Origin: Magnolia sinica | Taxonomy: Eukaryota; Streptophyta; Magnoliopsida; Magnoliales; Magnoliaceae | Assembly (NCBI RefSeq): GCF_029962835.1 | Contig: NC_080588.1 | Span: 61,342,001-61,406,000, forward strand | Length of the DNA: 64,000 bases | Direction of reading: 5' to 3' | Part shown: positions 34,792 to 44,547 of the stretch, piece by piece | How positions within the stretch are numbered: position 1 is the first letter of the stretch | Layout of the letters: every line of letters begins with the position of its first letter | Notes under the pieces: model-generated | The model's database searches: none | Told to the model about the DNA's origin: nothing | Seen by the model: only the letters and a program-made list of their open reading frames with translations | Position numbers and translations under genes: made by a program

Positions 34792-36332
34792 AATAGGCTT
34801 GACCGAGAACTCGTTTGTAGTTTCTTAGATCTTGTTTGGCTTGGAGTCAACAAGTAGATTTGAAAACGAAAATGTCACATTTGAGGAATGGAAAATAATC
34901 CTAAAAAGGTTGTTTGTTTTAATCTCTGTGATTTTCAGAGAAATGTGGAATGGTCATTGGTCCAAAAGTGAATAAACTCTCAAAAAGTGAGGAAATGATA
35001 ATTATTAAGTTTTTTTTTTGAGGAAAACAGAAAACAACCTTCTTCTATTTTTTCTTTATTCTTTTTTTTATTTTTTTTATTTTTTTTATTTTTATAGGAA
35101 AACAATTTCCCACAGGTTTCTTTATTCTTGCAATAGGCAGAAAGTGTTTTTTTTTTTTCCACAGTAGAAATCAGAATTCCTCCAATCCCAACAGACCTAA
35201 ATGTTTTCGTTCTAGTAGTTTTACAACTGTGTAATATCGATGACTTGACCCAAAACAATCACCACGCAAGCCACGAGCAATCACTGACAGTCAGGGTTGT
35301 CAATGGGCTCTCAGATCTGTGGGTAACCAATGGACCCAACACTACAATGAAACTGACCTTTACCGTTGGTAAAACTTTTACCGGCGGTTGGGTAAGTGCC
35401 GGTAAGGGCCGGTAAATTTTTTCCGGCGGTCATCGGCCTTTACCGGTGGTTGTGGTGGATGCCGATGCATGTAAGCACCACCAGAAAAATGATGAAAAGC
35501 TATAGATAAAACCCATAGCTAAATACATATAACTATGGTTATAGTTCATGGCAAGACCTAGCCATTAGTTCTGCAGTGATTGCTTTTGTAGAAATAGATA
35601 CGAATATAATCCGTAGCTATAGAGCCGATCGCTTGGAATTAAATCCCTAGGCAGTGTGGGAACAACACTAAATGAGTCACCTCATGAAATTCCCTAGGCG
35701 GCCTAATCGAAAATTCTAGTAGGCGATGATAAAGTGGAAACTTCAGTGCCTTTGATTTGCCTCCCAACACTAAATGTATACATGACATACACCCAATTTC
35801 ATTTCAAGTTAACAACATATAAGCACACAAGCATGCAAGGCAACCATATCTCACCTGAACATGAGATTGTGAGATTAATGATAAGATACTATTGTCTTTA
35901 TGCTTGATATTGATGTGCAAGTGAAAACAACCAAACAGACATCCATCCATAAGTTAGCAATTGCTAATTAATATAAATAGATTTCATTTGTTTCACAGAA
36001 TTTCATGTGTTTCTTTTAACAGAAAAATTGAGGAATTTTTTATGCTTATAGGAATCGTAGAAAATGCATATTCCAAGGGTTGGAAAGGAGCAGAGGATTT
36101 GGAGATGGAGACTTGGGTGTCTTTTCACCATCCTGTATCAAGCAAATCTTGGTTTTCAAAATAAAATTCACTTAAACATAGATAAAATACATCCACTTAA
36201 CCTCAATGTGGCTGCCAGATGAATGAACCTACCTGACATTTGTGCCAGGTGATCTTCACAAATGGATCCTATCTGATTCACAGCTCAGATCTCCCACAAA
36301 ACACAAAAAATTTATAAAAAGATTTAAGATAC

Positions 36333-36410
36333 CTGCTGGAAGCATGTGAATTGTGTAACCTCCATCACATCCATCAAAATTTCGCAGCCCAATCCCCAAG
36401 CACCAAGAAC
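36333..36410 (-). pseudogene. Isolated exon of organellar glycyl-tRNA synthetase (EDD1-type)
   Basis: 26 codons with an AG acceptor before 36410 and a GTATCT donor after 36333. The peptide begins [18 protein letters not shown] and ends TQFTCFQQ, matching the conserved [20 protein letters not shown] region of the alpha part of bacterial-type glycyl-tRNA synthetase, which in plants is the chloroplast/mitochondrial EDD1 enzyme. Conserved Trp and Gly residues are changed (W to C, W to L, G to V, Y to C), so it is decaying. No neighbouring synthetase exons were seen; it is a captured fragment. Confidence 0.75.
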
Positions 36411-37560
36411 CTTTCAACATTTCAAAAAAAAAAAAAAGAAAAGAAGAAGAAGAGGGAAAATGAGTTTGCTAATAAGAACCGTGAACTATGCCAAAATTTC
36501 CAGATCAACTAGGTACTCTTAAGCTTACAGTTATTATCTAATGTAACATGAGTACATGCTACAATTCAAGTTGTATCTCAAGCTTCTCAATCATACTTAA
36601 TTGATCTAGCCCAAATCATACTAAGAAAAGAGACAAAATCAACAACAACAAAAAAATAATTAAAAATAAAAATTAAATCAGCCAATTCGAATTAAAAAAA
36701 GGCCTACGGGACTTTCCTAGTTGTCCTCCATGAAACGTATATCACGTTCATTCACATTAATACTTGCTAAGCACGTTAGCTTCAGATACTCAAGCCCGGA
36801 AGGTATGTAAAAGAAAAAATATTGATATGTACTGGATAACAGATTATACAGAAACCAGAGATCCTAAGATTGAATCATATCTAATTAAAATGAGCATTCG
36901 TTCAGTAAAAAGCATATATCAAATAATGACCGGCTTGGAATTCCATATTTTCAAGGTGAACTTTTCTTCTTTTTGAATTTTTTTTTAATTTTAGAATCAC
37001 TGATTTCATCTTTACTGCTGATTAATGAATATTATCAACAGAAGAAAAAAAATCAAATCCTATTCATATCACTACAAGATGATTTGTAGGAGATATGATC
37101 TGAGGCTTTCTACAATGGTCACTGGTTATTGATTCTGACAAGTGAGACCCATGCTTACATAATACAAATCATTTTTTGTGTGTGACAGTGTGGATGGAGA
37201 GCCTAGCCACCAGGAATAAACTTTTTTTTTCAATTGAACATGGGCCATTGGATATTTCTCTTCTTACCAGGCTATTTGTAGCAACAACAAAAAAAACTTA
37301 CAATGTGATATCGAAGAGATTTTTCTTTATCATGGTTCATCAATGGTGGGGCACAACAGAGCAGCAATCTGGATAACCAGAACAATACTGAGGTCTGCTA
37401 TGTTGATGAGAGACTTCCAAAAACATGCTAGACGATATAACATTGAATTTAATTTTGTAAAGAAGATGGATGAAAATAATCCCTCAATGCCAAATAAAGA
37501 TAGATAGTACAAAAGACAAAGTCAGACAACAAATTAATATGAATTTTGTTAGTGTTACAG

Positions 37561-37680
37561 GCCTACATGCCGCCGATGCTGATAAACACTGCCTTGAAAG
37601 ATGGCTTAAAGAAGGCTATGGTTCTCTTTCCTACACTATCAATATCGAACGTGGCTGATACAATATACGGAGGGGTTATG
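37561..37680 (+). other. Exon-like open segment of unknown origin
   Basis: After an acceptor-like GTTAGTGTTACAG the frame reads AYMPPMLINTALKDGLKKAM, then VLFPTLSISNVADTIYGG, before a stop at 37681. Composition and the splice-like border suggest a captured exon, but I do not recognise the protein. An overlapping frame (LHAADADKHCLERWLKEGYG) is also open, so the true frame is uncertain. Confidence 0.3.
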
Positions 37681-37720
37681 TGATTGCTTCTCAACTAGCC
37701 TGATAAATAAACATCCAAAT

Positions 37721-37814
37721 GAGAGAGAGAGAGAGAGAGAGAGAGAGAGAGAGAGAGAGAGAGAGAGAGAGAGAGAGAGAGAGAGAGAGAGAGAGAGAGA
37801 GAGAGAGAGAGAGA
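37721..37814. repeat. (GA)47 microsatellite
   Basis: Uninterrupted GA run of 94 bp. Open frames over it on both strands are artefacts. Confidence 0.97.
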
Positions 37815-42212: not shown

Positions 42213-42330
42213 GGGGACTACCTAACAATCGCCAACTTAGGCGATTCCCGTGCAATCCTTTGCACCAGAGATAATGGAAACCAACTCATTCCCATACAAC
42301 TCACTATCGACTTAAAGTCCAATGTTCCAA
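42213..42330 (+). pseudogene. Isolated exon of a protein phosphatase 2C
   Basis: Preceded by a good acceptor (TTTAATCCATGCAG) and followed by GTGGGT. The peptide GDYLTIANLGDSRAILCTRD, then QLIPIQLTIDLKSNVPS, matches the ANLGDSRAVL...QLTVDLKPNLP motif of plant clade E-type PP2C Ser/Thr phosphatases. The metal-coordinating Asp of GDSR is present. No adjacent PP2C exons were found, and it lies on the opposite strand from the EDM2 and synthetase fragments, fitting independent capture. Confidence 0.75.
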
Positions 42331-42966
42331 GTGGGTCCCCCTTTTTTAACCTCTCTTTTGCTTCTCTATGTCCACCAATCAATGTCCAGCTGGTCCCAAA
42401 AGGGACATTGTCGCATGAGATCTAGACCATTCATCAGGGGGTTTTCAATCAGTATGCTCAGTGGTTTGAAAATGATGTCGGTGGGGGCATTGATTGGGCT
42501 GCATATGGATGTTGAATGGGGTGCATTAATCCTTTTTTAATTTTTATTTTCTAGTTGTCCATTTCTTCTTTCATATGTAAAATGGTCCACCTGATGGCTG
42601 GATTAGCCCATGGTATATAATGTTGGGGTGCAGTAGACGAATGACCAGATATCGCATCCACATGTCACATTGGACAGGGGATATTCCCTGATTGAGCCAG
42701 TAAAGACATGCATACACTTGTACAATTTACCAATATAGTATCTAATGGCATGCATACTGCAAAAGATTGATATACAACTTAGCTAAAATATTCAAAAGAA
42801 CTGAAAGGGGTCTTGGTTGAAGCATTTCTTCAAATGGTTAACGTGCATATTTCAAACCAGATAAGAGACTTGAAAAACACATTAAAAATTCAGCAAAACT
42901 GAAAAGAACAATTCAAACCTCCAATTGGGAATTAGAAGCCCCAAATTTTGTAACCAAATAAGACCA

Positions 42967-43023
42967 AGAGAGAGAGAGAGAGAGAGAGAGAGAGAGAGAG
43001 AGAGAGAGAGAGAGAGAGAGAGA
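42967..43023. repeat. (GA)n microsatellite
   Basis: Uninterrupted GA run of about 57 bp. Confidence 0.97.
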
Positions 43024-43318
43024 ACAAAAGAAAACAAAAACTAAAAATTCAGAGAAAAAGAGAACAAATGGTTATTTTAAAAAACCCAACTACATTACCC
43101 AAAATCGCTGCAAAATCCAGAGAACAGATCTGCACACATTCAAATCAGTCCTTGCATTTGGGTTCTAGGAATCCCAGCCACAGATCGAGGCTTCATCAAA
43201 ATGTAGTGAATGGGAAGGAGATGAAGAGACATCAAGGCCTAGGGCTTTATGCAAAAGTGGAATATCCAATAGCGTACCTATATCAAAGGAAGGATAAACG
43301 AAAATATTGCAACTAGCT

Positions 43319-43410
43319 GAGAGAGAGAGAGAGAGAGAGAGAGAGAGAGAGAGAGAGAGAGAGAGGGAGGTAGGGAGGGAGAGGGAGAGGCAGAGAGAGA
43401 GGGAGAGAGT
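43319..43410. repeat. (GA)n microsatellite with GGGA interruptions
   Basis: About 22 pure GA units followed by GGGAGG-type imperfect purine repeats, next to the right end of the probable CACTA element. Confidence 0.95.
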
Positions 43411-44547
43411 TGGCCACAGGAAGAAGAACTTTGCCGGCGGCCGGCTTTACCTAGCGCCGGTAAAAATCCTCCATGCTATCGTCAAATCCTCGTTTTTGTT
43501 GTAGTGTGCAACCCTATTTCAATGAGTCCACATTCAAATTTTCAGAACCATTTAGAAATGGTCGGTTTTGACCCGACAAGACCTCAATCCTAATAGGCTA
43601 GGTACAGGTACAGGTACTCTAGGACCTGACCTCAAACCTAACCCATTGACAGACCTACCAACAAACTTGGAATGACATCAACCTTTACTATTAAGTATTT
43701 CATACAGCTTTAACATTAAGATGCTCATGAAACTCTGTAATACCATTTTCATTTGACGTCAACCAAACCTATGTACCAGTTGTAAATAGAGTTTTGAGTT
43801 CTCAAAACCCATTATAGATTTCTATACAAGTCTCAAATTGATACAATACCAATACTGGTAGTCAATGCTCAATAGTATACTTGAAGGATATGTTTCAACT
43901 GAATCTCGGGGTATTGGGTCAACTGAATTTTTGTTTTTGCTTTTGGTCACAAGTATAAACGAAATGCCATATAAAAGCCTTGATGCGAAGACTACATAAA
44001 TATTAAAAATTCTGCAAAAATTGGAAACGGATTCTATTCCCCATATCAGAATATCCCTATATGGGCATCCTAACAAATGCAATGATCATATTCATAGATT
44101 CCAGGATCATATCTCTCAATTAAGAATAAATATTTATGTACAATACACCCCAAGTTGTTGGGATGGGCTTAGATGATGATGATGAGGATCTATGTATGAT
44201 ACAATATAAAAGTTTTAGATTTTAGGTATCTAGGCTCTGTATAGAAGAAATGCCCATATTCTTTTGAGTGTCTGTAGAAAATTTTTAAAAAATGGGGAGT
44301 AAGAAATCAACAGGCATAGACTGCTACGCTCAAAACGACTGGATTAGAGAATAAAAGGGTGATACAGCTCATCAAGCTCAAAAAGGAAATTTTCATGACC
44401 TGTTGCATGCCAATTGTTAGGAGAATGAAATCTGACCGCATTGGCTTTATCCAAACAGGCTTTTGCATCAGGCCATGATCCGAATTTCTAGTAAATCTTT
44501 GCCCAATCCTCCCATGCTTCCATTTCTAATTTCTTAGTGGCTTCGGC

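Follow-up and report, generated by a model that had tools for sequence, protein, structure and literature searches.

Transposons that carry pieces of host genes are known from Arabidopsis, grasses, soybean and Chenopodium. In soybean, the CACTA element Tgm-Express1 lies in intron 2 of F3H and, according to the available text of PMC1947982, is 5.7 kb long, contains five fragments and gives rise to chimeric transcripts. Pack-CACTA elements, or Pack-TYPE elements more broadly, are described for Arabidopsis, rice and maize in the accessible part of PMC8903248, which cites Catoni et al. 2019, and both PMC8903248 and the available portion of a review (PMC13317346) put forward the merging of neighbouring insertions as their origin. 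Here we describe a CACTA element of 8167 bp in Magnolia sinica, which carries fragments of three host genes, encoding an alpha-type glycyl-tRNA synthetase (GlyRS), EDM2 and a PP2C phosphatase. It lies in a 64,000-nucleotide stretch of contig NC_080588.1 (C16:61342001-61406000, hereafter the window, whose positions are used throughout), which we compared with a genome of 1,838,573,281 bases in 127 contigs. As a Pack-CACTA element with pieces of several genes, present in a magnoliid, it extends the known range of the phenomenon; no report of one was found in a literature search whose coverage left out most subscription journals, so that absence in print is not proven.

Termini, insertion site and class of the element

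The element is bounded by terminal inverted repeats beginning with CACTA, reading CACTACAA from 35340 and TTGTAGTG up to 43506, and both ends carry clusters of short subterminal motifs. Six hexamers with a CCGG core have 21 matches in the window, and the terminal 150 bp of the element account for 6 of these at the left end and 5 at the right; every other 150-bp stretch of the window, scanned in 10-bp steps, holds at most 3. Among 200 windows simulated under a first-order Markov model, there were no termini with four or more hexamer matches.

Evidence for a single insertion comes from the flanks. As a genome query, the right flank (43507-44700) gave 21 matches, two of them long and both on C16 (62141862-62143078, and 60862472-60863429 in two pieces). 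At C16:60863371-60863720, in reversed orientation, the left flank passes directly into the right flank with no element in between. When this empty site is compared with the window flanks joined through a single CAA, the two align without a gap over 167 nt with 151 identities (97/109 to the left of the junction and 54/58 to the right), the empty site itself reading CGA at the insertion point. Because of this paralogous empty site, we conclude that the element arrived as a single unit, duplicating the three bases CAA.

The original prediction, made from the window alone, had described inverted CACTA termini with subterminal clusters at both ends and had proposed that an En/Spm-like element with pieces of three or more unrelated host genes moved here as one unit, in what was probably a magnoliid, all of which is borne out. 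The empty site that it expected in a related accession was found as a paralogous site in the same genome, not in such an accession. It erred in holding that the 3-bp flanks do not match: the CAA duplication is present, and it is the bases TG, standing between the terminal TAGTG and the right CAA, that made the flanks seem mismatched. The extra TG may, at a guess, stem from slippage of the terminal GTG. CACTA elements duplicate 3 bp of their target. A duplication of 5 nt, as given for CACTA elements in the available text of PMC8903248, is not seen at the flanks of this element.

These observations bear directly on whether the segment is an element at all. One could picture the remains of ordinary genes or pseudogenes lying between two CACTA-like ends that arose by chance, and the window does contain 6 instances of CACTACAA, distributed over both strands. 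Against this stand the subterminal clusters, which the simulations did not reproduce, the empty site, whose duplicated bases flank the element on either side, and the cargo itself, which comes from three genes not all in one orientation and includes a piece that corresponds to a locus on a different chromosome; the empty site in effect refutes the idea, and we give it next to no credence. The same site excludes, at the window locus and not for the family, that the two ends belong to separate elements. The flanks were also considered as one miniature inverted-repeat transposable element with inverted TGTCAATGGG ends, of which there was no second copy in 361,785 bases searched.

Membership of the CACTA (En/Spm) superfamily follows from terminal repeats, subterminal motif clusters and a short target-site duplication, each of which is present. 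No transposase family was found in the six frames of the element by Pfam search with E values up to 1, a range in which HMMER filters drop most matches above 0.1, and the element is thus classed as non-autonomous. With host fragments of GlyRS, EDM2 and PP2C inside CACTA ends and no transposase, it is a Pack-CACTA element by content. Helitrons begin with TC and end with CTRR and a hairpin, have no terminal inverted repeats and make no target duplication; the terminal inverted repeats and the target duplication rule out this identity for the outer element.

The two flanks hold exons of an NPGR1-like TPR gene (Table 1), which are adjacent in the query sequence (entered by hand and not taken from a database record, as were the GlyRS and EDM2 queries below), the left one corresponding to the end of the query. 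With this query no further NPGR1-like exons were found in 94 kb. The element lies between these two exons, a place that would correspond to the last intron of a decayed gene of this kind. The flanks of this relic have relatives at C16 60.86 and 62.14-62.17 Mb.

Table 1. Features of the element and its surroundings, in window positions.
Positions	Strand	Feature	Basis
34060..34371	-	Last exon of NPGR1-like TPR gene relic, left of element	57% over 104 aa, E 2e-32, hand-entered query; TPR Pfam matches
35337..35339	+	Target-site duplication CAA, left copy	Empty-site comparison
35340..43506	.	Non-autonomous CACTA element, 8167 bp	Termini, subterminal clusters, gapless empty-site alignment
35340..35873	+	Left CACTA end, CACTACAA terminus and TTTACCGGCGG/GCCGGTAAA-type subterminal repeats	Genome matches, C17 homology
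35868..35873	+	Transition from left CACTA end to GlyRS unit; microhomology of 6 nt, TGTGAG	Comparison with L022, L039 and L041
36333..36410	-	GlyRS (alpha-type) exon, 26 codons, AG/GT borders	PF02091 E 9.3e-9; PDB 3rf1 E 1.6e-6
36705..36803	-	Second GlyRS exon, one in-frame stop (match extent, not exact borders)	tblastn E 1.2e-4, hand-entered query
37680..38249	-	EDM2 gene fragment	92-98% in four pieces against C11:83.80 Mb
37821..39470	.	Stretch missing from copy B, including EDM2 exon; (GA)n tracts at bounds	Alignment of A and B
42213..42330	+	PP2C exon, AG/GT borders	PF00481 E 1e-4
42487..43506	+	Right part: repeat segment 42487 to about 43319, followed by the right CACTA end (TTGTAGTG terminus)	
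43507..43511	+	Additional TG, followed by the right CAA copy (43509-43511)	Empty-site comparison
44398..44550	-	Preceding exon of NPGR1-like relic, one stop, right of element	48%, E 9.6e-11, hand-entered query

Host gene fragments and their fate

EDM2 is the gene for which a probable donor locus was found. The piece comprises one whole exon (38088-38206, minus strand) with the intron after it, and it extends about 25 nt into the next exon on one side and 43 nt into the preceding intron on the other. The exon is 87.5% identical over 40 aa to the hand-entered stretch of EDM2, and it has no match in Pfam or the PDB; a literature search with the peptide was likewise empty. On C11, a 2-kb stretch (L043) gives four consecutive matches to this EDM2 sequence and is probably the donor locus. 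Since the fragment and the C11 locus have the intron in common, the source was genomic DNA rather than mRNA.

GlyRS is represented by two exons, which are found together in the window element (A), in its duplicate described below (copy B) and at three further loci (L039 on C17, L041 on C9 and L042 on C6). In A, the 26-codon exon has altered residues at conserved positions and the second exon carries a stop that is missing from copy B. A query of 471 bases covering GlyRS and its flank had 42 genome matches; leaving A and B aside, 7 of them span 423 bases or more at 82-93% identity. Two candidate donors, L044 on C5 and L047 at C6:87.3 Mb, look decayed or unclear, and, since they share with A only 135-149 bp around the exon, neither was accepted. 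For the PP2C region there were 32 genome matches, one of which, at C8:77.73 Mb, covers the query in three pieces.

Single splice-bordered exons of the three genes had been called beforehand, and the Pfam matches for GlyRS and PP2C, the agreement of EDM2 with C11 and the AG and GT found at the borders of all three support that call. The accompanying statement that no sibling exons lie nearby was wrong for GlyRS; the exons are not parts of full genes in the neighbourhood. The proposed alignment of exons to their parent genes, flanking intron included, led for EDM2 to the C11 stretch with its four exon matches.

Nothing indicates a function for the cargo, which is most likely a passenger, because its exons are decaying: GlyRS has its stop and changed residues, and PP2C has an insertion in copy B. 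Captured exons can behave otherwise, as in soybean, where the available account of Tgm-Express1 (PMC1947982) provides a published precedent for cassette exons. The GlyRS and EDM2 exons share their strand with the NPGR1-like exons and have retained their AG and GT borders, so that they might serve as cassette exons of the interrupted gene. That gene, however, appears to be a relic, with two exons in 94 kb by the hand-entered query and a stop in one of them, and the second GlyRS exon carries a stop as well. On the sequence, we consider such a role very improbable.

Copies, composites and the origin of the cargo

Copy B lies 0.79 Mb away on the same chromosome (C16:62.145-62.215 Mb) and, among the matches listed, corresponds to the window between about 20142 and the right end of the element. 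As it shares the left flank, it is a segmental duplicate and not an independent insertion. Identity between A and B is 93.5% across the left flank and 84% across the left CACTA end; within the element it is about 93-96% for the interior, and it falls to 73% over the final 107 bp. Their exons agree at 74/78 positions for GlyRS and at 111/118 for PP2C, where B also has a 7-nt insertion causing a frameshift. By eye, the element in B ends some 6 nt short of the right terminus (at about 62175.6 kb) and gives way to unrelated DNA; the matching right flank stands alone about 34 kb upstream (C16:62141862), starting some 12 nt past the position of the terminus. The truncation and the displaced flank therefore place a rearrangement break close to the right end of the element. 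The layout looks as if the transposon end had served as the break point. Window positions 21565-27873, with a TDBD/PHD-finger reading frame (25820-26629, minus strand), are also repeated in copy B, and a more distant copy lies in the same 70 kb of C16.

Related ends are scattered through the genome. The first 201 bp of the element have at least 36 matches, A and copy B included, and a right-end query of the outermost 112 bp with 14 bp of flank has at least 5, A included, both counts being lower bounds. Three of six other left-end loci that were cut out (on C11, C15 and C12) have a CACTACAA terminus and a like subterminal pattern, and three right-end matches on C17 have intact CACTACAACAAAACAGGG ends. 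Followed further, a C17 relative shares 42721-43506 with A at 81%, terminus included; the left-end homology of the C17 element (L021/L022) spans 35368-35873. A whole-element blastn search against 20-kb stretches beside five left ends found no right-end homology. A relaxed end scan of such stretches, of C17a and of copy B recovered only three known left ends, and it is weak for right ends, having missed the known one of C17a. A TTGTAGTG at 2233 in C17a looked unrelated. At C9:14395459-14395520 (L030), 62 nt from the right subterminal region are matched at 98%, with no CACTA terminus alongside. The search for other copies spanning both ends, which had been proposed as a check, thus returned only the segmental duplicate; no copies were found to show that the two ends belong to different elements, although in the family at large they might.

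Inside the element, the pieces can be followed separately. At the left junction, a C17 CACTA relative is homologous to A up to 35873, and the GlyRS loci L039 and L041, which have a common start point and unrelated flanks, are homologous from 35868; the overlap, TGTGAG, is common to both sides. A 781-base query of EDM2 and its flank had 46 matches, 3 of which, besides A, cover about 700 bases at 90-92%. All three (one on C6, two on C10) have a GlyRS-query match 1.1-1.2 kb away, those on C10 being short (166 and 199 bases) and lacking the 26-codon exon. In the C6 composite (L042), which aligns with 36122-38520, the EDM2 exon is accompanied by both GlyRS exons; in the C10 composite L046, which aligns with 36455-38520, it is accompanied by the upstream GlyRS exon only. 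These two of the three composites were read, and neither has homology to a CACTA end of A. GlyRS and EDM2 occur together at other loci and were therefore either joined beforehand or copied out later. To the right, segment 42480-43300 has 51 matches, 16 of them, besides A and B, nearly full-length at 86-90% (15/16 starting at 42487-42489). The left boundary at 42487 recurs in matches to the PP2C region, and in two copies of the dispersed 42487-43319 repeat that were read rightward the homology ends in a GA tract, with no CACTA end.

All this leaves it highly probable, in our judgement, that the locus is a Pack-CACTA element, inserted once, with both its ends, a largely foreign interior and gene pieces that are most likely passengers. 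Several observations weigh on the other side. The target duplication is displaced by the two extra bases; there is no independent copy with both ends, the left and right matches adjoining only at A; no PP2C donor was pinned down among the 32 matches, whose neighbouring exons were not inspected; and the cargo pieces, like the 42487-43319 repeat, occur elsewhere, in the copies read without CACTA ends, so that direct capture from genes by the element is not established for each piece. The cargo pieces thus also circulate outside the element, which they may predate or postdate.

It is conceivable, if on balance doubtful, that another mobile unit or composite repeat gathered the gene pieces and came to lie inside, or was joined to, a plain CACTA element that captured nothing itself. 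The GlyRS units on C17 and C9 point this way, with their same start and unrelated flanks, as do the GlyRS-EDM2 composites at C6 and the two C10 places, L042 and L046 having no homology to the CACTA ends of A. Stray copies of TTGTAGTG in L042 and of CACTACAA in L041 and L046, tried as element ends, lack subterminal repeats. On the other hand, no terminal structure or target duplication of a separate unit was recognised at the one end of the inner GlyRS unit that was inspected, by eye, also with Helitrons in mind. The transition from CACTA end to GlyRS unit falls on a microhomology, and the continuation of the C17 CACTA relative beyond that junction was not found elsewhere in the element. Finally, the C6 and C10 composites have left sides that are cut or different (in L042, by eye, by an apparent retrotransposon), and CACTA ends may have been lost there. 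More specifically, the GlyRS-EDM2 cargo could tentatively be seen as a mobile chimera of earlier date, its terminus fixed at about 35868, which spread through the genome and was later engulfed by a CACTA element or fused with one. Were this so, it would represent a two-tier system of gene shuffling whose stages are readable from surviving copies.

If the element itself took up the pieces, its history might run as follows. Movement would depend on a transposase provided in trans and acting at the CACTACAA ends and subterminal repeats, and a broken element would have been repaired by copying or joining foreign DNA, a process that could have left the microhomology observed at the left junction. 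A single insertion between the two NPGR1-like exons, with duplication of CAA, is the step that the empty site records directly. The locus was then duplicated as a segment on the same chromosome, and deletion between GA tracts is the simplest account of how copy B may have lost its EDM2 piece.

Outside the element, open frames at 4124-7094 resemble a reverse transcriptase of the type found in long interspersed nuclear elements, and one at 18019-18843 is built of repeated units, both judged by eye from the list of open reading frames.

Comparison with known systems

With an empty site, a probable donor, a microhomology junction, partial composites and a duplicate at hand, it may be possible to reconstruct in what order capture, insertion, duplication and loss took place. 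That order bears on how DNA transposons gather genes, whether through repair with template switching or through the merging of neighbouring insertions. Like the Chenopodium CACTA elements, as presented in the accessible part of PMC8978399, the magnolia element has host gene fragments inside; those elements carry transposase-related domains, whereas none were found here. It resembles the Pack-CACTA elements of PMC8903248, as far as the available text describes them, in being non-autonomous, in its CACTACAA ends (given there for Arabidopsis CACTA), and in holding host coding fragments without a transposase. It differs from them in its magnoliid host, in that no cluster of similar complete copies was found, and in the microhomology at its left junction. 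Like Tgm-Express1, on the available account, it belongs to the CACTA superfamily, contains exon and intron pieces from several unrelated host genes and sits in an intron of a plant gene; unlike Tgm-Express1, which lies in an expressed host gene, the magnolia element is 8.2 kb long, holds decayed pieces of three genes and is embedded in a gene relic.

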